Assembly: GCA_022827945.1 (NCBI GenBank)
Contig: JAJEIT010000026.1
Span: 1 to 64,000 of the forward strand
Direction of reading: 5' to 3'
Length of the DNA stretch: 64,000 nucleotides
Source: Dehalococcoidia bacterium
Lineage (GTDB): Bacteria; Chloroflexota; Dehalococcoidia; Tepidiformales; Tepidiformaceae
This document shows positions 1 through 47,271 of this stretch, piece by piece; position 1 is the stretch's first letter, and each line of letters begins with the position of its first letter. A program made the translations under genes and the position numbers. The notes below the pieces were generated by a model. The model did no database searches and was not told the DNA's origin. It saw nothing but the letters and a program-made list of their open reading frames with translations.

Positions 1-577
1 CCACCGTCACCCCGCTCGCCGCCCCCAGCGCGACCAGCGTCCAGTAGCACTCCCCCGCCACCGTCCCCGCCGCCGCCGCCAGCAGTCGCACGTCCCGCGT
101 CGCCAGCATCCCCAGCCAACCGACCACCGGCCACCGACCACCACCCACCACCCCCCACACCCCCTCCGCCTCCGCCCGCGCCCGGCTGTAGCTCACCGTC
201 AGCGACCCCGCAAGCGCCAGCGCCCCCACCACCGCCGCGTTCGGCCAGTCCTCGAACCGCGCCGCGTACACCGTCATCCCCCCCAGGATGGCCGCGTCCG
301 CGTACCGGTCCGCGATCGCGTCCAGCGCCGCCCCCAGACGCGACGTCCGCCCCGTCAGCCGCGCCAGGTCCCCGTCCACCCCGTCCACGATGCTCGCCAG
401 CTGGATCCCGATGCCCCCCGCCACGTTCCACCCCAGCGCCACCACCGCCCCCACCCCCAGCGACAGCGCCAGCGTCCCCCACGTCGCCCCGTTCGGCGTC
501 AGCGGCGTATGCGAGAGCGCCGCCGCCAGCGGCCGGCTCACCCGCCGGTTCACGTGTCGCGAGACGATTCCGTCCAT
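1..577 (-). CDS. CDP-alcohol phosphatidyltransferase family protein (partial, runs off window start)
   Basis: Manual minus-strand translation from ATG at 577 gives MDGIVSRHVNRRVSRPL...IVDGVDGDLARLTGRTSRLGAALDAIADRYADAAIL, matching the DGxxAR(x8)GxxxDxxxD motif exactly. Not in the ORF track because it is open at the window edge. Confidence 0.9.
   Translation of the reverse strand, partial: MDGIVSRHVNRRVSRPLAAALSHTPLTPNGATWGTLALSLGVGAVVALGWNVAGGIGIQLASIVDGVDGDLARLTGRTSRLGAALDAIADRYADAAILGGMTVYAARFEDWPNAAVVGALALAGSLTVSYSRARAEAEGVWGVVGGGRWPVVGWLGMLATRDVRLLAAAAGTVAGECYWTLVALGAASGVTV
116..160. repeat. Heptamer-family (CCACCGGCCACCGACCACC) repeat segment inside a CDS
   Basis: Contains the 19-nt string ccaccggccaccgaccacc, also found at about 825-843; encodes WGVVGGGRWPVVG in the phosphatidyltransferase. 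Confidence 0.7.
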
Positions 578-656
578 GGTGAATGGTGACTGGTGGTTAG
601 TGAATGGTGGGGGGCCGGGGCGGACTATCCACTATCCACCATCCACTATTCACTAC
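578..656. repeat. Heptamer palindromic repeat element
   Basis: Left arm gtgaatg/gtgactg/gtggtta/gtgaatg; right arm ctatcca/ctatcca/ccatcca/ctattca; arms are complementary and 7-bp periodic. Confidence 0.85.
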
Positions 657-788
657 CCCGCCGCTTCGCGGCGCTACCCCATCCCCCCCAGGGACAGCCC
701 CACCAGCAGCCCGATGAACCCCAGGCACACGACGCTCAGCAACCCGATCGTTCTCCACATGCGCGCAAGTGTAACTGGTGCCCGGTTT

Positions 789-846
789 TCGGTGATCGGT
801 GGCCGGTGGGGCTGCGGGGACCGGCCACCGGCCACCGACCACCGGT
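789..846. repeat. Heptamer-family repeat, GC-rich variant
   Basis: ggtgatcggtggccggtgg...ccggccaccggccaccgaccacc inverted repeat. Confidence 0.7.
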
Positions 847-864
847 CCTACCCACTACGCTCCC

Positions 865-2061
865 CTACTGCTGCGGTAGCGTCGGGAGGATCACATAGCC
901 CTCGCACACGAGCCCGTCGTTGTCTTCGTCGACCTCCAGCGGTACGCGATAGTCGGGGAAGCCGCGACTGATGCCGACGGCTGCCGACTGCGGACTGAGG
1001 CTCAAGGTCGCCTCCCGGCACGACGAGAACGCCGTCGAGATGAGAATGATCCGCTGGTGGTCCGCCCACTCCTCGAAGTCGCTGTAGAAGTCCGGCAGGG
1101 TCGCGTTGAAGACGCTCTGGAAGGCCGTGTTCGCGTCCAGGCCCGCGAGGACGCTGCTGTAGAAGCGCAACCAGTCCGCGAACTCGCCGTAGTACTCGAG
1201 CGCGTACAGCATCGCCAGCGTCTTCATGTCGTCGCTCGCCTGGTCGCGCCGGATGTTCCGCGAACGCTCGTAGAAGATCACCCGCCGGAAGCGGTCCTCC
1301 GTGATCTCGGGAACGACCCCGGCCGCGTAGTGGTTCGCGAAATAATCGCTGGCGCCGTGCCCCAGCCAGCTCGGGGTCACCTCCCCCGTCCCCACGGCCC
1401 GCGAGAACCACTCCGAGGCGAGCGCCACCTTGTCGGAACGGCACGACGGGCTGAGGAACAGGTGCGCGCCCTCCTGGAACGAGCACTCGTCCGGGAGCTC
1501 CTCGAGCCGCCGCCCGAACACATCCTCGTACCGGCTGAGCAGGCCGTTGGCGGAGTGGGCGATGTTGAGCGTGATGCTCCCCGTGTGCGCGATCCCGTAC
1601 TCCTTCAGGGCGAAGTCGACCACCCCTTGCATCTCCCGCTCCACCTGGCGCTGCAGCGCTGGCCGGTCATCCATGCCCCGCACCTCGCAGCAGGGGCCGG
1701 CCTCGGGCGTGTCGCTGTCGATCGGCAGTGCCGCCGGCGGCGGCACCTTCGTCGGTTCCGCCTCCACCGCGTCCGGCACCTCCACCTCCACCGAGAGGGG
1801 TATGGCCACCGTGATCACGCTGCTCAGCTGGAAGCGCCCCGAGTTGCTGAGCGCGCTCATGTTGAGCGGGGCATCCACGGTGTTCCAGTCCTCGACCCCC
1901 TGCGGACGGGTGCTGATGAACAGCTCTCCGTCCGAGATGCGCTGCCAGACGCGCACCTCCACGTTCGCCGTCGTCTCCACCGTCCGCGTCGCCGCGAACG
2001 CCCCCAGCGCGCTCCCGATCGCGATGGCCGCGATGAGCGCCGCGATGATCGTGGTCTTCAC
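865..2061 (-). CDS. Exported protein with N-terminal VRVWQ..STRPQG domain; possible metallopeptidase-like C-terminal region
   Basis: ORF 865..2256; likely start GTG 2061 (VKTTIIAALIAAIAIGSALG signal anchor, GGAGGGG upstream). Domain VEVRVWQRISDGELFISTRPQG. Confidence 0.75.
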   Translation of the reverse strand: MKTTIIAALIAAIAIGSALGAFAATRTVETTANVEVRVWQRISDGELFISTRPQGVEDWNTVDAPLNMSALSNSGRFQLSSVITVAIPLSVEVEVPDAVEAEPTKVPPPAALPIDSDTPEAGPCCEVRGMDDRPALQRQVEREMQGVVDFALKEYGIAHTGSITLNIAHSANGLLSRYEDVFGRRLEELPDECSFQEGAHLFLSPSCRSDKVALASEWFSRAVGTGEVTPSWLGHGASDYFANHYAAGVVPEITEDRFRRVIFYERSRNIRRDQASDDMKTLAMLYALEYYGEFADWLRFYSSVLAGLDANTAFQSVFNATLPDFYSDFEEWADHQRIILISTAFSSCREATLSLSPQSAAVGISRGFPDYRVPLEVDEDNDGLVCEGYVILPTLPQQ

Positions 2062-2228
2062 GCTCGCCCCTCCAGTGGCCCGAGCAGGATAGCGGACGGG
2101 GGCAAGTGGTGGATGCTGACCGGTGACTGGTCCTCCGGTCCCCCGGCGAGTGCGGCGAGCCCGGAATTCACGAATTTCCGCCACTCCCCCCTTGCGCAAT
2201 AGATCATGCGTGCTAGCGTTTCTGCGAA

Positions 2229-2486
2229 ATGTTGCACGAAAGCACAGACAACCCAACTGATTCGTTCACGACCGACAACCTCGCCACCGTTTACGACGTA
2301 AACGTCATGGGCGAGGCCGTCATGGAAGACGTCATCGAGCGTTACGGGAAGCTCGCCGCCCGGGTCGACCGCCAGGCCGCGACGATCGCCGCCCAGGAAG
2401 CGGCGCTCGCCGGCCTGCGCGAGCTCGTCCGGCAGCTCCTGTCCCTCTTCGCCCCGCCGCCCTGTCCCCACGGGGGTAGTGAATAG
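2229..2486 (+). CDS. Small hypothetical, coiled-coil-like protein
   Basis: 85-aa ORF MLHESTDNPTDS...LARVDRQAATIAAQEAALAGLRELVRQLL; heptad-like C-terminal half. Confidence 0.5.
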   Translation: MLHESTDNPTDSFTTDNLATVYDVNVMGEAVMEDVIERYGKLAARVDRQAATIAAQEAALAGLRELVRQLLSLFAPPPCPHGGSE

Positions 2487-2608
2487 TGGATGGTGAATCG
2501 TGAATAGTGATTGGTCTCCACCCCTGTCCCCCGTCCCCGGCGAGCTCCGCTCGCCCGTCCTCACACAAGACCACTATCCACTAACCACCACCCACTATTC
2601 ACTACCCC
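2476..2608. repeat. Heptamer palindromic repeat element, copy A (left of four-helix-bundle gene)
   Basis: gtgaata gtggatg gtgaatc gtgaata gtgattgg ... ccccggcgagctccgctcgcccgtcctcacacaagaccactatccactaaccaccacccactattcactac. Confidence 0.9.
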
Positions 2609-2699
2609 CGGTGAATCGTGAATAGTGATCCGCCCCGTCCCCCGGCGAGCGCAGCTCGCACACCATCCACTACCCACTATTCACCATCCACTACCCCCA
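2609..2699. repeat. Heptamer palindromic repeat element, copy overlapping the four-helix-bundle ORF 5' end
   Basis: gtgaatcgtgaatagtgatcc ... cccccggcgagcgcagctcgc ... accatccactacccactattcaccatccactac. Confidence 0.85.
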
Positions 2700-3064
2700 T
2701 CCAGGGCTATCGCGACCTCGAGGTGTGGCGGCAGTCGATGGATCTCGCCGCGACGGTGTGGAAGCTATCCGCCGGGTTTCCCGCGGAGGAGCGCTTCGGC
2801 ATGACCAGCCAGCTGCGAAGGGCCGCCTCCTCCGTGCCGGCGAACATCGCCGAAGGCGCCGGGCGGAGCGGAACCGGAGAGTTCCTCCAGTTCCTCGGCA
2901 TCGCCAGCGGCTCCCTTGCCGAGACAGAGACCTTCCTGCTCCTCGCAGAGCGCCTTCAACTGCTCCCCCCCGAACGCTCGAAAGCCGCCCTCGACCAGGC
3001 CGAAGCCGTCGGCCGCATGCTGACTGCGCTCAAGCGCTCCCTCCGCAAGCGGAGGGGCGCTTAG
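2618..3064 (+). CDS. Four-helix-bundle protein (23S rRNA IVP / bAvd-like family)
   Basis: YRDLEVWRQSMDLAATVWKLSAGFPAEERFGMTSQLRRAASSVPANIAEGAGRSGTGEFLQFLGIASGSLAETETFLLLA is diagnostic of the family. First ~30 aa are repeat-encoded; true start uncertain. Confidence 0.92.
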   Translation: MNSDPPRPPASAARTPSTTHYSPSTTPIQGYRDLEVWRQSMDLAATVWKLSAGFPAEERFGMTSQLRRAASSVPANIAEGAGRSGTGEFLQFLGIASGSLAETETFLLLAERLQLLPPERSKAALDQAEAVGRMLTALKRSLRKRRGA

Positions 3065-3215
3065 TGATTAGTGGATGGTGAATAGTGGATAGTGATTAGC
3101 CGCCCCGGCCCCGCCCCGCGCCCCCGGCGAGCTCTGCTCGCCCGTCCTCACACAAAACCACTATTCACTAACCACCATCCACCATTCACTATCCACCATT
3201 CACTACTCACTTTGC
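3062..3215. repeat. Heptamer palindromic repeat element, copy B (right of four-helix-bundle gene)
   Basis: tagtgattagtggatggtgaatagtggatagtgatta ... ccccggcgagctctgctcgcccgtcctcacacaaaaccactattcactaaccaccatcc; nearly identical to copy A right half. Confidence 0.9.
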
Positions 3216-3672
3216 CCCCACTAGTTAACCTTTCGACGCCAATGGCGTTGTAGGCATCAAACCCGAACTGCGCTCAGGCCTCCGTGGGCCCTGCGCGTGG
3301 GCGGAACAGGTTGACCGTCGGGCATGCGAAACGTAGGCTCGCCTCCAACTCTGACCGCTTCTGTACCACGGAGAAAGGAGGCCGCTTTCCCCCGCTGAGC
3401 GAGGCGCGCGCGCCGGTCTAGAGGGCCCGCGCGAGAGACGTGAGACGCGAGGGTTTCACCCATAGACACCACGCACAGGGGAACGGCCCGGACCCGCCTG
3501 GAGGCCTAGCGCCAGGCACTGGCGGCAGAACGAGCGGGCGGCCCCACAGAGGAAGCGGAGCACCCTTCCGCTATCCGCCCGCACGATCCGGGCGAGTCCG
3601 GAACACGAACCAGGCCCACACGGGCCGCCAGAGACACCCAACTCAACACCCAACACAAAAGGGGTACTTGAT

Positions 3673-5565
3673 TTGAAGAAGAACCTCATTAGCGCCATCG
3701 CCGGCTGGAAGTCCGCCGCGCTCCTGGCGCTCATCGCAATGGTGGCGGCCGTCGCCTTCAGCGGCGTCCTCTCCACCACCCAGACCGCATCCGCCGTGCT
3801 CGGGCTGCAAGTGGGCGGGGCCGACAATACCGGTCCTTACTCTCCGGGCACTGTTGTGACGGTCTCGACCAGCACTACAGTTGGTCTTGATACCACCACC
3901 GGCGGCGACTACACGAACTGGACCATCCAGACGACGGGTGGAGCGGAAGCGACTTTCCTGGCCAGTGGCACTACCACGCTGACTTGCCAGGATGCCACTC
4001 CTGCTGCCAGCGCCTGTGACTCGAACACGGCTGCCGGCACGGTGACAGTTGCCGTGAAGATCGCCGACGACTCGGGTGCTGGCGCTATCCTGGTCAGGGC
4101 GACCAAGTTCGGTGGCGCCGCGACCGAGACGGACCTGGCGGTCCTGAGTGTCAACCCTGGCCTCACGCCAACGTCGATCACTCTCCGGGCGGCCTCCTCG
4201 GCCATTTCGGCGACTGATTCCAACAACAACACGACCGCTCTGACGGTAACCGTGAAGAACAGCCTGGGCAGGGGCGTGGTGGTTCCTGTTGATCTGGTTA
4301 CGACCTTCGGGCAGTTCTCCTCGTGCGAAGGCACTGCCGTGACTTCCCAGGCGTGCGCTGCCACGACGACCGCATCGGATACGAATCCGCCCGCTGCCAC
4401 CGATGGCCAGCCGACCTCGGCACCTGTGCTGCAGTCCCTCGGCTCGCCGGGTACGGCGACGGTGACGGCCACCATTCGGGGCACGTCAATGAGCGCCACG
4501 ACGGACGTCACCTTCTATGGCGCTGCCACGGGCATCGAGATCGCGTCCGACCAGGATGCGCTCCAGATCGGTGACAGCACCTTCATCGTGGTGACCATTA
4601 CGGACGCGGCCGGTTCCCCGGTTGCGCGCCACACGCTCCTTGACACGGCCGTGGCGGTCACGGGACCGGCTGTCCCGTCGGTGGCGCTGGCGAAGGCCAT
4701 TAACGTGCCGAAGGAAGTTGGCCCGGCTGACGGCGTCGTCAATGGCGCTATCGGCGAGCTACCGTTCTGCCAGACCGGCACAGCGGTGTACGACACCACG
4801 AACAACGTCAACTACCTGAACCCCACTCCTCCTGGAGGGGATCTCAATGGTGGCACGAACGCCCAGGGTAAGTGCGTTATCCAGGTAACCGCTTCGGGTC
4901 ATGCCACGCCGACTAACCCGGCTGACGACGCGACTCGTGGCGTTCACACCGTGAAGGTGACCCTGAGCGCGACGGCGTCGGCTTCGGTGGAGATCAGCGT
5001 TGGCGGAGCGCCAACCACCATCGAGAGCGACGCTCCCGCGAGGATCGACCCCTCGGCTGAGATTACGGTGAACGTCACCGTGCTCGACGACGAAGGCGAC
5101 CGCGTGGGCGAGGTGAGCATCGAGGTCGACCAGACCGCCGGCGACGGCAAGATCATCACCGATATTGCGGCGATGACCGCGAGTGGTCGCGCGAAGTTCA
5201 CCTACCTCGCGCCCTCCACGCCGGGCAAGGCCGAGTTCCTCGTCCGCACCCGGAACGCGCTCGGCGCTGTGACGGCGTCGCTGCCGATCATCGTCACCAT
5301 CGGCGATGCGCCGGAAGAGGCCCCTGAGGCCCCGCCGGCCACGTGGAACAACGACCTCGTCTCCGGCCAGAACCTCGTGGTCTGGAACGGCGCCGACGGC
5401 GCCGACCCGTCCGAGGGCGCTGCTGACGGCGTGTCGGCCATCTGGTCGTACAACACCGGCAGTGGTAGCTGGGACGGCTACTTCCCGGATGCTGCGGATG
5501 TCCCGGGTGGCAACACCCTGACGTCGCTCAGCAACGGCCAGGCCTACGTGGTCATCGTCGACTAA
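3673..5565 (+). CDS. Large exported surface/S-layer-like protein with Ig-like (invasin/Big-type) repeats
   Basis: TTG start, signal peptide KKNLISAIAGWKSAALLALIAMVAAVAFSG; Thr/Val/Ala-rich beta-domains; C-terminal GQNLVVWNG...SAIWSYNTGSGSWDGYFPDA. Confidence 0.75.
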   Translation: MKKNLISAIAGWKSAALLALIAMVAAVAFSGVLSTTQTASAVLGLQVGGADNTGPYSPGTVVTVSTSTTVGLDTTTGGDYTNWTIQTTGGAEATFLASGTTTLTCQDATPAASACDSNTAAGTVTVAVKIADDSGAGAILVRATKFGGAATETDLAVLSVNPGLTPTSITLRAASSAISATDSNNNTTALTVTVKNSLGRGVVVPVDLVTTFGQFSSCEGTAVTSQACAATTTASDTNPPAATDGQPTSAPVLQSLGSPGTATVTATIRGTSMSATTDVTFYGAATGIEIASDQDALQIGDSTFIVVTITDAAGSPVARHTLLDTAVAVTGPAVPSVALAKAINVPKEVGPADGVVNGAIGELPFCQTGTAVYDTTNNVNYLNPTPPGGDLNGGTNAQGKCVIQVTASGHATPTNPADDATRGVHTVKVTLSATASASVEISVGGAPTTIESDAPARIDPSAEITVNVTVLDDEGDRVGEVSIEVDQTAGDGKIITDIAAMTASGRAKFTYLAPSTPGKAEFLVRTRNALGAVTASLPIIVTIGDAPEEAPEAPPATWNNDLVSGQNLVVWNGADGADPSEGAADGVSAIWSYNTGSGSWDGYFPDAADVPGGNTLTSLSNGQAYVVIVD

Positions 5566-5585
5566 CCTGTCCGCAACCAACCCCA

Positions 5586-5616
5586 CCCCCGGCCCCGCCT
5601 CGCGCGGGGCCGGGGG
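5586..5616 (+). terminator. Strong GC-rich hairpin after the surface-protein gene
   Basis: cccccggccccgc-ctc-gcgcggggccggggg; no clear U-tract. Confidence 0.55.
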
Positions 5617-5669
5617 ACCGGGGAAGGTCCGGGCTTTAGCCATACGGACAGACAAAGGAGCAAAACGGA

Positions 5670-6434
5670 ATGACCAAGACTCTTAAGTGGCTCGGAGGGG
5701 GCGTTGCGGCGGTCATGCTGCTTGGCCTCGCCGGCCTCTTCAGTGGAGAGGTGGCCGAGGCCCAGCCGTCTGGCCCGCCTCACCGCTTCGCCGGCTCCGT
5801 GACCCTCGACGATGAACCCGCGGCCGCTGGCACGTCGGTCACCGCCGTCGTCAACGGCGCCGAGTGTGGCTCCGCCACCGTCATCGAGAGCGCTGCCGGT
5901 TCGACCTACGCGCTCGACGTGCCCGACAGCTGCGCCGATGCCGGCGACACCGTCTCCTTCCATGTCGGGGGCTACGCAGCCGCCGAATCTGGAACCTGGA
6001 GCGGTGGCGGCCGCACCGACCTCGACCTGACGGCCTCCTCGGCCATGGCCGAAGAGCCCATGGATGACATGGGCGACGAGTGCCCGGACGAGATGGCCGA
6101 CGACGGCATGGGTGAGGGCGACGAGCCCGCCGAGCCGTCCGAGCCTGAGGAGCCCGCCGAGCCGTCCGAGCCTGCGGAGCCCATGGATGTCATGGGTGAC
6201 GACATGGCCGACGACTGCCCGACGGACGACATGGACGACATGGATGACATGGATGACATGGATGACATGGACGACATGGACGACATGGACGACATGGACG
6301 ACATGGCTCCGGAAGCCGGCGACACCGGCACCGGCCTCGCGACCAGCACCAGCACCTCGCTGGCTGCCATCCTCGGTGTGACCGCCCTCGCAGTCCTGCT
6401 GGGCAGCTACACCTTCGCCCGCCGCCGCCGCTAG
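5670..6434 (+). CDS. Exported protein with (DDM)9 acidic tract and C-terminal TM plus RRRR sorting-like tail
   Basis: Signal peptide; beta-domain; DDM repeat; C-term [41 protein letters not shown]. Confidence 0.8.
6225..6305 (+). repeat. Nine tandem 9-bp units (GAYGACATG), encoding (Asp-Asp-Met)9
   Basis: Direct reading: gacgacatg/gatgacatg repeated with only C/T wobble changes. Confidence 0.95.
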
Positions 6435-6460
6435 ACCTCTAGCGCCGTAAGGCACAACCC

Positions 6461-6486
6461 GAAAGGGGCCCTCCGGGGCCCCTTTC
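6461..6486 (+). terminator. Rho-independent-like terminator
   Basis: gaaaggggccctccggggcccctttc perfect hairpin. Confidence 0.8.
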
Positions 6487-6496
6487 GTGATCCCGG

Positions 6497-6763
6497 GAGA
6501 GCGCCGCGCTCGCGCGGCTGAGTGGAGCGGCGGACTGCCGTCCGCCTGAGGAGAGCGCCCGGCGCTGCGCGCCATCGCTGAGAAGAGCGCACGGCTTCGC
6601 CGCGCTGAGTAGGGAGACACCCGCCGGCACGGACACACCGCAACGGCCCCACTCAGGCGCGCCCGGCGCGCCGCTCTCCTCAGCAAGCGGCGCAGCCGCG
6701 AGCGCTCTTCTCAGCCGCGCATCGCGCGGCGCTCCCCTCAGCGAGCATCGCGAGCGCTCTCCT
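6497..6763. repeat. Multi-hairpin repeat (CTCAG-[palindromic core]-CGCTC units), two opposed arrays
   Basis: Four units on the minus strand followed by four on the plus, with 2-nt junctions. Confidence 0.85.
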
Positions 6764-6776
6764 TTACACTGCCCCG

Positions 6777-7373
6777 GTGAAGAACTGGATCATCGCCGCG
6801 CTCGTCGCCGCGATTGCGCTCACGCTCGTCGCCGGCGCCGTCGCGCAGTCGCGCACGGCGCAGCCCACGGCGCGGGTCCAGCTGCGCATCTGGGAAGAGT
6901 ACGAGCAGCCCCGGAAGAACTGGGTCAGCATCCGCACCGACGGCGCCCCCTGGGGCGCCGACACCCCCCGCCTCCACTTCGACGACGGCGTCACCCCCGA
7001 CGGCCGCTACCGCTACGCCGAGCTCACCATCGACACCGCCGTCCCCGACCCCGTCCCCACCGGCCTGTACGTCACCGACACGTCCTGCTACCGGGCCCAG
7101 TTCAACGCCTTCCTCACCCTGAACGGCTTCATCCACAACGTCACCGGGGCCACCGTCCGCGACGTGACGGTCACGGCCGCCCTGCGCGAACGCACGGGCG
7201 AGGAGGTCGCGCAGGCGGCGGCCATCGCCCTGCACGGCATCTCGCCCTGGGGCAAGCGTGCGCTGGCCATCAACTTCTTCAGCGCCCTCGGCAGGCAGGG
7301 CACGTGCCACGTCGTCGCCATCGAGTACGACGCCACCATCCGCTACGACGAGCCCCAGGCGGCCCCGGAATGA
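6777..7373 (+). CDS. Exported protein with VRVWQ/SRPEGG-like domain
   Basis: GTG start; MKNWIIAALVAAIALTLVAG; VQLRIWEEYEQPRKNWVSIRTDGAPW. Confidence 0.75.
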   Translation: MKNWIIAALVAAIALTLVAGAVAQSRTAQPTARVQLRIWEEYEQPRKNWVSIRTDGAPWGADTPRLHFDDGVTPDGRYRYAELTIDTAVPDPVPTGLYVTDTSCYRAQFNAFLTLNGFIHNVTGATVRDVTVTAALRERTGEEVAQAAAIALHGISPWGKRALAINFFSALGRQGTCHVVAIEYDATIRYDEPQAAPE

Positions 7374-7954
7374 TCAAGAACGCCGTCATCGCCGCCCTCG
7401 CCGTGGTCCTGGCGCTCTCGATCGCCGGCGTCGTCGCCCAGACGCAGCGCACGGCCACGGTCCAGGTGCGCATCTACGAGGACATCGAGGATCCGGGGTC
7501 GCACTACATCTCCTCCCGCCCCCACGGCGGCGAGTGGACCGAGTCGCGCGAGGTCCCGCCCCTCAACGACGGCTTCGTCCAGGCCGGGAAGTACCGCTTC
7601 GTCAACGTGTGGGTCGGCGCCACCGTCCCCCAGCCCATCCCCCCCGCCGTCGAGCTGTTCGACCTCGAGTGCACCGACCACGTCCACCCGAACGGGTTCC
7701 ACCGCATCCTGCGCGGCTCCCTCCGCAACCTCGCGAACGCGACGCTGACGGACGTCACGATCACGGCCGCCCTCGTCAACGAGGACGGCGTCGAGATGCT
7801 GCAGGTCACGGACGAGATCGGGGGCGCCATCGCGCACGGCGGCGAGCGGCCGTTCCTGGTCAACTTCATCGGCGCCCCCAACGTGGCCGGAACCTGCCCC
7901 GTCGTCAGCATCGACTACACCGCCACCGTCCGCTACGAAGTGCCCATCCCGTAG
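7370..7954 (+). CDS. Exported paralogue of the preceding gene (overlapping ATGA)
   Basis: MIKNAVIAALAVVLALSIAG; VQVRIYEDIEDPGSHYISSRPHGGEW; C-terminal half similar to the 6777 product. Confidence 0.78.
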   Translation: MIKNAVIAALAVVLALSIAGVVAQTQRTATVQVRIYEDIEDPGSHYISSRPHGGEWTESREVPPLNDGFVQAGKYRFVNVWVGATVPQPIPPAVELFDLECTDHVHPNGFHRILRGSLRNLANATLTDVTITAALVNEDGVEMLQVTDEIGGAIAHGGERPFLVNFIGAPNVAGTCPVVSIDYTATVRYEVPIP

Positions 7955-7956
7955 GA

Positions 7957-7987
7957 GTGGATAGCGGGTAGTGAATAGTGAATGGTG
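7957..7987. repeat. Heptamer repeat, half element
   Basis: gtggatagcgggtagtgaatagtgaatggtgg. Confidence 0.7.
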
Positions 7988-8027
7988 GCCTTGCTATCCA
8001 CAACCATCTTGCTAGACTAACGTCGCG

Positions 8028-8318
8028 ATGGCGCTTTCGTTCGACACGCACGAGTCGATCCGCAGGCTCCGCGGCAAGGGGTTCGATGAACCCCAGGCCG
8101 AGGGCGTCGTCGAGTTCGTTCGCGATGCCACTGCGGAGCAAGTCACGCGCGAGCACTTCGACGGGCGCTTCGCCGTCCAAGACGCGTACATCGATGCCCG
8201 CTTCGCCGAGCAGCGCGCCGAGTTCTACCGCGCCCTCTGGGTCTTCGGCGGCGGCATCGTGGCGGCCAATGCCGCTATCGTCACCGCCGTCGTCACCATT
8301 ACCCAGGTGCTCGCCTAG
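8028..8318 (+). CDS. Small coiled-coil plus C-terminal TM protein (paralogous family in this window)
   Basis: FDTHESIRRLRGKGFDEPQAEGVVEFVRDATAEQVTREHFDGRFAVQDAYIDARFAEQRAEFYRALW + TM. Confidence 0.75.
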   Translation: MALSFDTHESIRRLRGKGFDEPQAEGVVEFVRDATAEQVTREHFDGRFAVQDAYIDARFAEQRAEFYRALWVFGGGIVAANAAIVTAVVTITQVLA

Positions 8319-8340
8319 CCGCCGGCCCCGCCAGCCCCGC

Positions 8341-8388
8341 GAGCCACTATTCACGATCCACTAGCCACTATTCCCTATCCACCAGACA
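8341..8388. repeat. Heptamer repeat, half element
   Basis: gccactattcacgatccactagccactattccctatccacc. Confidence 0.7.
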
Positions 8389-8396
8389 CTCTTTCC

Positions 8397-9842
8397 GTGG
8401 ACCTGATACTGGCCAACCGCGCGCTCGTCGACCACCACGCCCCGCCCGGGGGCGCGGGCGGCCCCGCGCCTGCCACCGGCGGCCTCGTCGAGGCCGTGCG
8501 GCCCGTGCTCGTCCCCTGGGACGGCGCCGCCGGAACCACGTGGATCGGCGCCGGCCGCGGCCCCCACGACCGCGCCTGGACCGACGACGCCGGCTTCGAG
8601 CTGCTGGAGACGCCCGCGGGTCCCATCCGCCACCAGCGCCTCTACCTCGCCGAGGACGACTGGCGCGGCCACTACGCGGAGGTCGCCAACGGCTTCTTCT
8701 GGCCCCTCCTCCACCTCGTGCGCGTCGACCTGCCCCTCAAGCTCGCCTACTACCCCACCCCCGAAGCCCCCTCGGATGCGGCCTGGTCCGCCTACGAGCG
8801 CGTTAACCGCGCCTTCGCCGGGGCCGCCCTCGCCGCCAGCGGCGAGGTCTGCTGGGTGCACGACTACCAGCTCGCGCTCGTGCCGGCCATGCTCCGCGAG
8901 GGCGGCTTCCGGGGGCGCACCGGCTTCTTCCTCCACACCCCGTTCCCCTCCCTCGCCGTCGCCGAATCCTCCCTGCCGCCGCCCGCCCGCGCCCGCTTCG
9001 CCGCCTGGCTCGACGGCATCCTCGGGGCGGACCTCGCGGGCGTCCAGACCGAGGCCGACGCCGATCGCCTGCGCGAGGCCGCCGAGCGCCTCTGCGGCGC
9101 TCGCGTCGAGGGCCCCGACCTGCGCCTGAACGGCCGCCTCGTGCGTATCGCCGCCTTTCCCGCCGGCATCGACGCGGACGACCTCGCCCGCCAGGCCCCC
9201 GCCGGCGCCCTCCCCGCCGCCGTCCCCCACGACCCCGCCCTGCCCCTCGTCGTCGGCCTCGAGCGCGCCGATTACACCAAGGGCGTCCCCGAGCGGCTGG
9301 CCGCCGTGTCGGCCGCGATCGCGGGCGGCGCGCGCTTCGCCTATGCCGGCTTCTCCGCACCCACCCGCCCCGGCGTCCCCGCCTACGACGCGCTCCAGGC
9401 CGAGTGCGAACGGCTCGCGTCGGAGGCCTCCGCCCTCGCCGCCGATCGCGGCCTGCCCTTCGTCCAGAGCCGCGAGGCGCTCGCCTGGAGCGAGGTGCTC
9501 GCCCTCCTCCGCGAGGCCGACGTCGTCTTCACCGCCTCCATCGCCGACGGCATGAACCTGGTGCCGCTGCAGGCCGTCATCGCGCAGTCGTCGCGGCCCG
9601 CGGGCGAACGCGGCGTCGTGCTGGCGGGCCGCGATGCCGGCGTCTCGTCCGCCTACGCCGGCTTCGAGGACGACGGCCTCGTCGCCCTCGACCCGCTGAA
9701 GCCGGAGGCCTCGAAGCGCGCCCTCCTCGACGCGCTGGAGGGACGCCCCGGCCGTGTCAGCGACCGGCTCGTGGCCGCCGTCCGCGAGCGCGACGCCCAC
9801 GCCTGGGGACGCACCTTCCTGGGCGCCCTCGACGGGGCATGA
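8397..9842 (+). CDS. otsA: Trehalose-6-phosphate synthase (GT20)
   Basis: CWVHDYQLALVPAMLR, FFLHTPFPS, GLERADYTKGVPERL, ADVVFTASIADGMNLVPLQAV; adjacent otsB. Confidence 0.9.
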   Translation: MDLILANRALVDHHAPPGGAGGPAPATGGLVEAVRPVLVPWDGAAGTTWIGAGRGPHDRAWTDDAGFELLETPAGPIRHQRLYLAEDDWRGHYAEVANGFFWPLLHLVRVDLPLKLAYYPTPEAPSDAAWSAYERVNRAFAGAALAASGEVCWVHDYQLALVPAMLREGGFRGRTGFFLHTPFPSLAVAESSLPPPARARFAAWLDGILGADLAGVQTEADADRLREAAERLCGARVEGPDLRLNGRLVRIAAFPAGIDADDLARQAPAGALPAAVPHDPALPLVVGLERADYTKGVPERLAAVSAAIAGGARFAYAGFSAPTRPGVPAYDALQAECERLASEASALAADRGLPFVQSREALAWSEVLALLREADVVFTASIADGMNLVPLQAVIAQSSRPAGERGVVLAGRDAGVSSAYAGFEDDGLVALDPLKPEASKRALLDALEGRPGRVSDRLVAAVRERDAHAWGRTFLGALDGA

Positions 9843-30386: not shown

Positions 30387-31283
30387 ATGCCCGACTACGA
30401 AAACCTGATCCTTGACCGCGCCGGCACCGACGGCCGCGTCGGACGCATCACCCTCAACCGCCCGGAGAAGATGAACGCCCTCTCGCAGGAGCTCCTTTTC
30501 GAGTTCAACGAAGCCCTCCACGACTACGAGGCCGACGACAGCATCCGCGTCATCATCATCAAGGGCGCCGGACGCTGCTTTAGCGCCGGCTACGACCTCA
30601 CTCCACCCCAGGGCCGCGGCGCCGATGCCGTCGTCCGCCGCCACCGCGCCGTCGACGACGAGGGCCGCCGCCTGCTCTGGAACATGCGCACCGGCATGCA
30701 GCAGATCACCGACATCCAGATGTACTACTGGAACATGGCCAAGGTCACCATCGCCCAGCTCCACGGCTACGCCCTCGCCGGTGGCTGCGAGATGGCGATG
30801 ATGTCCGACATGGTTACCGCCGCCGAGGACGTCCGCATCGGCCACCCCGGCGTGCGGGGCCTCGGCGTCGCTCGCAACGGCGCCATCTTCCCGCTCGTCC
30901 TCGGCATGCGGAAGGCGAAGGAGCTGTACTACACGGGCGACAACGTCACCGGCAAGGAGGCCGAGGAGATCGGCATGGTCAACTACGCCTGGCCCGCCGA
31001 CGAGCTCGAGGAACGCACCATCGCCTTCGCCGACCGCATCGCCAACCTGAGCGCCGACCACCTCGCCATCGCCAAGACGAGCATGAACCGCTTCTACGAG
31101 AACATGGGCATCTACTCGTCCATCCGCAGCTCCACCGACCTCGACGCCGCCGGGCAGTTCACCGCCCAGGCGTACGAATGGCAGGACCGCACCCGCCAGG
31201 CCATGGAGAGCGGCGGCGGCCTCAAGGAAGCCCTCGACTGGCGCGACGGCCCCTACCGGGACTACCGCGCCAGCGGGCGGTAG
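30387..31283 (+). CDS. Enoyl-CoA hydratase/isomerase family protein
   Basis: ITLNRPEKMNALSQEL, KGAGRCFSAGYDL, LHGYALAGGCEMAMMSDM. Confidence 0.93.
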   Translation: MPDYENLILDRAGTDGRVGRITLNRPEKMNALSQELLFEFNEALHDYEADDSIRVIIIKGAGRCFSAGYDLTPPQGRGADAVVRRHRAVDDEGRRLLWNMRTGMQQITDIQMYYWNMAKVTIAQLHGYALAGGCEMAMMSDMVTAAEDVRIGHPGVRGLGVARNGAIFPLVLGMRKAKELYYTGDNVTGKEAEEIGMVNYAWPADELEERTIAFADRIANLSADHLAIAKTSMNRFYENMGIYSSIRSSTDLDAAGQFTAQAYEWQDRTRQAMESGGGLKEALDWRDGPYRDYRASGR

Positions 31284-31383
31284 TGGGTAGTGGATAGTGA
31301 GTAGTGAATGGTGTTTGGGGTTAATCCCTCACCAGCCACCAGCCACCAGCCACCAGCCACCGGCCACCGGCCACTACTCACTA
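31284..31383. repeat. Heptamer-family repeat element
   Basis: gtgggtagtggatagtgagtagtgaatggtg ... ccagccaccagccaccagccaccagccaccggccaccggccactactcacta. Confidence 0.85.
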
Positions 31384-47187: not shown

Positions 47188-47271
47188 TGGTGACCGCCGG
47201 CTGGTGACTGGTCCGCCCCTCCCCTGGGTGGGGTGGACACCAGTCACTATCCACTACTCACTACCCACTAG
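47188..47271. repeat. Heptamer-family repeat element adjacent to tRNA-Ser
   Basis: ggtgaccgccggctggtgactgg ... ccagtcactatccactactcactacccacta. Confidence 0.8.

Follow-up and report, generated by a model that had tools for sequence, protein, structure and literature searches.

An IVP gene, encoding a four-helix-bundle protein of the PF05635/TIGR02436 kind, and the inverted arrays of 7-nt repeats that frame it probably constitute one compact mobile element, in which the IVP protein would recognise the arrays and promote their spread. We base this reading on sequence comparison of the window (the whole 64,000-nt stretch of DNA analysed), its own genome, its relatives and IVP loci from 18 phyla. 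The first-pass annotation had suggested that the protein and the repeat might work together as a propagation or RNA-binding unit with a logic like that of REP/RAYT, and this proposal gains support from the enrichment of arrays beside IVP genes and from polymorphic insertions; the co-variation of repeat and protein, together with the cognate copies that have no IVP, exceeds what had been proposed there.

The window locus and its arrays

Structurally, the locus comprises the following features:

2476-2608, no strand: palindrome A; left arm 2479-2509 (31 nt, five GTG cores spaced by 7), right arm about 2572-2604, inner hairpin GC-rich
2609-2699, no strand: inner palindrome; arms 2611-2627 and 2661-2698; overlaps the annotated ORF start
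2618-3064, + strand: IVP gene, PF05635/TIGR02436 four-helix-bundle protein; domain 2711-3025; start uncertain, with no ATG and a GTG at 2618 inside the repeat
3062-3215, no strand: palindrome B; left arm 3064-3094 (31 nt, five GTG cores), right arm 3159-3211
3216-3670, no strand: flank on the right side of the insertion site (TTAACCTTT...), being the leader of the following gene; congeners conserve it at filled and empty sites alike

The IVP ORF is enclosed by complementary ends that can pair into a stem, and the three palindromes lie far beyond chance. The palindromic copies described in the first-pass annotation were borne out by repeat blocks (2522-2607 repeated at 3109-3194, 88%, and 2477-2538 repeated at 3062-3123, 76%), by arm complementarity (87% for 2471-2509/2572-2610 of palindrome A and 83% for 3062-3097/3156-3191 of palindrome B), and by folding against shuffles, with z scores of −10.7 for 2472-2610, −5.1 for 2609-2700 and −10.1 for 3062-3211. 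Three nested palindromes are special to this locus, the common layout being arm, gene, arm. Of the earlier label for the gene, 23S-IVP/bAvd-type, the first half held and the second did not: the protein matched the PF05635 Pfam profile with E 3e-36 (124.3 bits, cut-off 33.8) and the TIGR02436 profile with 118.3 bits (cut-off 24), and its match to bAvd was weak and sub-threshold (E 0.0045, 17.9 bits against a cut-off of 40), as was that to DivGenRetAVD (18.7 bits against a cut-off of 80). In the sister genome G007, the orthologue has an ATG directly behind the array (ATG ACC ATC CAG GGC TAT) that is missing from the window copy; the array is therefore non-coding in G007, and the N-terminus THYSPSTTPIQ, read earlier as repeat-encoded in the window protein, is doubtful. 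The suggested hallmark of orthologues with HYS/THYS N-termini likewise went unsupported.

Several further observations concern the surroundings of the gene. A small ORF annotated without a function (2229-2486) ends inside the first array, and a coiled-coil/TM ORF occupies the same place in G007. A GC-rich hairpin, GGCGAGC..GCTCGCC, lies in the palindrome loops at 2537-2558, 2640-2660 and 3122-3143 and likewise in several congeners (L156, L157, L160), and is missing from other heptamer palindromes, such as 576-655. The right flank at 3216-3670 (GTTAACC..GCGTTAC/GCGTTAT) recurs to the right of elements L058 and L061 in another genus (genomes G020 and G034), which may make the leader of the next gene a hot spot for insertion.

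Heptamer arrays elsewhere in the window are as follows:

576-655, no strand: heptamer palindrome without IVP, GTGRATR class; left arm 579-609, five GTG cores
783-844, no strand: heptamer palindrome without IVP, GTGRYCG class; its unit is that of the genome's other IVP element, L003
7971-8382, no strand: heptamer arrays (7971-7987 and about 8345-8382) around a small CCDC90-like ORF in place of IVP
31279-31374, no strand: heptamer palindrome without IVP, arms of mixed classes
47238-47261, − strand: lone heptamer array, GTGRATR class

The window contains six inverted pairs of tandem arrays at lag 7 and none at the other lags from 5 to 11. Period-7 inverted pairs number 0 in 400 kb of genome G004 and 2 in 370 kb of G003, and the density in the window is therefore unusual rather than genome-wide. 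The own genome holds 63 pattern matches to GTGRATRGTGRATRGTG (at most one mismatch), copy counts here being such matches, and 0 to the reversed pattern. It encodes three PF05635 genes, two of which have heptamer frames that differ in sequence, GTGRATR for the window gene and GTGRTCG for L003; the third, L002, adjoins tRNA-Sec and by eye shows degenerate inverted repeats only. As a separate observation, arrays of the GTGRATR class frame the CCDC90-like coiled-coil/TM ORF (about 8028-8318) in the fashion of an IVP gene, and similar ORFs adjoin arrays in sister genomes (L156, L157); this ORF is possibly a second passenger or a partner gene.

Heptamer arrays and IVP genes across relatives and phyla

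The array-framed IVP layout is widespread across bacteria, 99 of 144 testable IVP loci from relatives and 18 phyla having a strong period-7 array on one side or both (54/71 in the relatives and 45/73 in the other phyla, among loci with enough flank). Enrichment of the element beside PF05635-type genes, which the first-pass annotation had offered as a check, was pronounced in both sets: period-7 arrays occupied 83 of 142 flank windows in relatives, against 15 of 2,194 random windows (odds ratio 204, p 3e-97), and 64 of 146 in the 18 phyla, against 34 of 861 (odds ratio 19, p 1e-35). Across 80 named loci from 18 phyla, a strong period-7 array was found in 70 of 160 flank windows, and periods of 4, 5, 6, 10 and 11 gave zero arrays in the same windows. 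Homologous Avd genes of DGRs served as a control, with a period-7 array in 6 of 59 flanks, three of these six coming from L318 and L323, whose proteins look IVP-like by sequence. About 30% of IVP loci have no strong period-7 array, and in several of the non-period-7 loci both sides have period 8 or 9. A period common to both arms was 7 at 42 loci, 8 at four and 9 at two. The inverted layout is kept in the period-9 elements L083 and L110 and in the period-8 elements L084, L117, L126, L131 and L142. Period as a trait determined by the protein was rejected, the labels 7, 8 and 9 being unclustered on the IVP tree (14 changes, against a mean of 14.4 for shuffled labels).

Anatomically, the element measures about 475 nt and consists of an arm, a median of 412 nt with the IVP gene, and a second arm, arm lengths being commonest at 30-33 nt (59 of 163 arms). 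Read on the coding strand, 60 of 66 upstream arms are rich in G and 58 of 63 downstream arms rich in C. Pairing of an arm with its true partner has a median of −39 kcal/mol, as opposed to −14.7 kcal/mol for swapped arms (p 4e-22); the unit thus differs from locus to locus, but the two arms of one locus evolve in concert. Five GTG cores are the mode in the genus of the window (29 of 59 arrays), and arrays of Xanthomonas and Rhodanobacter peak at four GGG cores (14 of 22); a strict five-core count was consequently rejected as a general rule, the general property being an arm length of about 31 nt. Element sites include pheS-pheT, hspR-clpB, a metallophosphoesterase operon and tRNA neighbours, the protein gene names being assigned by eye from translations. 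The units in relatives are diverse (TCAGGGC, GTTGGCT, TAGGCGT, AGTGCTG, AGGTGAC, AGAGGAA, CGGACAA, AGGACTG, CGGGGAG and others) and the layout recurs, with the 7-nt period, the inversion and the arm-to-arm match as the conserved feature and the heptamer sequence as the variable one. Upstream of the IVP genes at L037, L061, L132 and L136, heptamer arrays extend to between 20 and over 40 units.

Evolutionarily, the heptamer tracks the IVP clade and not the host. Heptamer similarity rises with IVP identity among 113 period-7 loci (Mantel r 0.241, 0 of 2,000 permutations), and also with one locus per orthologous site (r 0.157, 15 of 2,000). Units of close IVPs in different genera are more similar (0.636) than those of distant IVPs in one genome (0.473; p 2.5e-8). 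The cross-phylum effect by itself is weak (p 0.014), although the unit is retained in some pairs from different phyla; a betaproteobacterial and a Chitinophaga MAG, for example, have AGGATTG in common, with IVPs 68% identical. Copies that have no IVP, in turn, bear the heptamer of the genome's IVP type. AGTGCTG arrays of this sort occur in 7 of 15 genomes with an R-type IVP and 0 of 45 others (p 1.7e-5), and GGCTRTY arrays in 10 of 18 genomes with an H-type IVP and 3 of 42 others (p 1e-4), both p values ignoring genome relatedness. The reversed-pattern control is uninformative for GTGRNYR and GGCTRTY, since the reversals match similar arrays, and specificity for these two therefore rests on absence from other genera. 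Some congeners carry arrays with no matching IVP; these exceptions look like leftovers. Copies can be numerous, with 175 pattern matches in Xanthomonas vasicola, whose one IVP gene is framed by the unit GGGAATC, and 42 in a Rhodanobacter genome with a single IVP gene.

Variation among sister genomes and the IVP protein

Empty sites and polymorphic insertions in sister strains, which the first-pass annotation had proposed to look for, were found among congeners, where a given site has the unit in some genomes and lacks it in others, or has it inverted or replaced. A site at an acyl-CoA dehydrogenase gene is filled in G000, G005 and G006 and empty in G001, G002, G003 and G007, the G000 element being inverted relative to those of G005 and G006, and the empty allele of G007 reads TACCAG-CCACCAGCCACTAG-AACAG. 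This best empty site retains about two heptamers, so that excision down to a remnant, instead of insertion, may account for it. No target-site duplication was evident by eye at this sole site with clear empty alleles, which keep those two or so heptamers. The window site contains IVP in G000 and G007, no heptamer array in G002 and G008, and heptamer arrays without IVP, partly of another class, in G001, G003, G005 and G006. The congeners G034 and G020 share flanks of about 90% identity, yet the IVPs between them have only 38% identity, are oppositely oriented and differ in their units; each element begins where the upstream gene has its stop codon. IVP distribution is sporadic, with 0 to 3 copies per genome in the genus and presence in 37 of 60 relatives. 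Genomes G001-G003 have many arrays and no detected IVP, which implies that arrays can persist in its absence, provided that the assemblies have not missed the gene.

Functionally, the IVP protein is under purifying selection (dN/dS 0.07-0.13), and a role for it is therefore likely. The window protein is related to XCC0516 of X. campestris (PDB 2gsc, E 5e-26), whose PDB entry has five chains; a homopentamer of four-helix bundles is described for this relative (Lin et al. 2006, as cited in PMC4990558). No catalytic domain was found in IVP by the profiles searched, and Pfam gave no transposase in it, the sole gene between the window arrays. Dependence on a reverse transcriptase was rejected, as RVT_1 was not detected in most IVP-bearing relatives, including the single-contig genomes G004, G020 and G034; the own genome has one RVT_1 match (contig C97), away from the element. 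A ring-and-repeat model, setting five chains against five cores per arm, is attractive and only a suggestion, because Xanthomonas arrays favour four cores.

Mechanism, alternatives and comparison with known systems

We posit that the IVP protein recognises the arrays of its own element, as their association suggests, and that this recognition would promote copying or insertion of that element. The protein could also act in trans on palindromes without IVP, which would then be MITE-like satellites. Because it has no known catalytic domain, it would be a recognition or architectural factor that borrows host replication, recombination or repair enzymes. In transcripts, the arms might pair into a long stem excisable by RNase III, and such removal is proposed to make insertions in operons or beside tRNA genes nearly harmless. 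Slippage could homogenise the units within an arm and palindrome correction the two arms, which would presumably explain the fast drift of the unit sequence.

A regulatory explanation is unlikely, though several findings speak for it. In this explanation, IVP would be an RNA-binding ring acting with TRAP-like logic on transcript arrays, which would give a regulon as well as autoregulation of IVP, the spread of arrays being secondary or otherwise caused. The left edges of arrays do abut upstream stop codons (69 of 86, 44 of these within 10 nt, against 222 of 1,004 random edges), arrays lie within operons with the coding strand as their G-rich strand, many arrays accompany one IVP gene, and five chains in crystals stand beside about 4.4 units per arm. 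Earlier authors also interpreted such arrays in this way, as binding sites of unknown regulators in Geobacter metallireducens (PMC2700814) and as regulatory for the heptamer/octamer arrays noted in Beggiatoaceae (PMC4679880). However, the presence of sites varies among congeners, unrelated IVPs swap at one site, many array-holding genomes have no IVP, and Rehm et al. detected no part for the Xanthomonas repeats in gene regulation (PMC4692102).

The absence of a catalytic domain in IVP would equally fit palindromes that are MITE-like ends moved by some other transposase, with IVP as a passenger, as would the common palindromes without IVP and the small CCDC90-like gene of the window that is likewise framed by arrays. 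Yet the unit sequence tracks IVP and not the host, the space between the arms (median 412 nt) just fits IVP, and selection maintains the protein, which together make the passenger account very improbable. We give the least credence, next to none, to passive microsatellites, that is, slippage-born 7-nt repeats in fragile intergenic places where IVP genes land or spread by homologous exchange. Heptameric repeats are over-represented in many bacteria (PMC4692102) and some arrays have dozens of units, as slippage might produce, but the IVP arrays are two-sided and inverted with matching sequence, they track IVP phylogeny, and Avd genes do not have them.

If the IVP gene and its arrays are one mobile element, the IVSs of 23S rRNA and the heptameric repeats of Xanthomonas, perhaps also of Geobacter, would belong to it. 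A broader proposal, to which we lean less than halfway, is a separate pan-bacterial mobile class in which a pentameric, non-enzymatic IVP recognises a code of 7 nt, with about five cores per arm and one for each subunit, and moves its own gene and, in trans, hundreds of gene-less arrays, with IVSs and the heptamers of Xanthomonas, Geobacter, Beggiatoaceae and perhaps heterocystous cyanobacteria as branches; there is a substantial chance that the element deserves a class of its own. The link joins two old puzzles, the role and origin of the 23S rRNA IVS protein and its inserts, and the excess of intergenic 7-nt repeats in many bacteria. If it is true, one binding assay tests both, each IVP being expected to prefer the heptamer of its own clade; there would be a mobile element that lacks a transposase, has a recognition code under fast drift and is widespread enough to alter the annotation of operon insertions, intergenic repeats and genes labelled 'four helix bundle protein'. 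We found no open-access paper tying heptamer arrays to IVP genes outside rRNA.

Compared with known systems, the element resembles the Avd (bAvd) of DGRs in having a related four-helix-bundle protein of like size, but the window protein falls under the bAvd/Avd cut-offs, and Avd genes lack heptamer frames. With REP/RAYT (TnpA-REP) it shares, by analogy, one protein gene between palindromic repeats and many gene-less copies of its own class; it differs in having variable 7-nt tandem units and no transposase domain (Y1/HUH), is non-homologous, and because of the missing transposase is not a REP/RAYT member. Terminal inverted repeats and polymorphic insertion between close relatives are shared with MITE-like elements. 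The G-rich heptamers of Xanthomonas have the same unit, GGGAATC, as that around the X. vasicola IVP gene (PMC4692102); they form 70-75 inverted pairs per genome, GGGAATC is quadruplex-forming, a function was not found, and that paper is silent on IVP/S23 (PMC4692102). The 'global regulator sites' of G. metallireducens are alike in their five tandem heptamers or four octamers in opposite-strand pairs (PMC2700814).

With the IVSs of 23S rRNA in Coxiella and others, the element shares a homologous ORF, stem-forming complementary ends and a sporadic distribution. The Coxiella IVS, at 428-444 nt, is similar in size to the IVP-heptamer element; tandem heptamers precede its S23p ORF, and RNase III excises it, as it does other IVSs (PMC4990558). 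That IVSs might be of mobile origin was already proposed decades ago (Burgin 1990; Ralph and McClelland 1993, cited in PMC4990558). An IVS inside 23S rRNA was nevertheless rejected for the window element, with no rRNA match in positions 1-9000 of the window, no 23S motifs near any of 112 IVP loci checked and no rRNA in an Rfam search of 16 IVP loci. Unlike those IVSs, the present elements lie outside rRNA at polymorphic chromosomal sites, generally have two-sided arrays and are accompanied by many cognate copies without IVP elsewhere in the genome. By protein, size and stem, the element is of the 23S rRNA IVS kind, found outside the 23S location by which that kind is defined.
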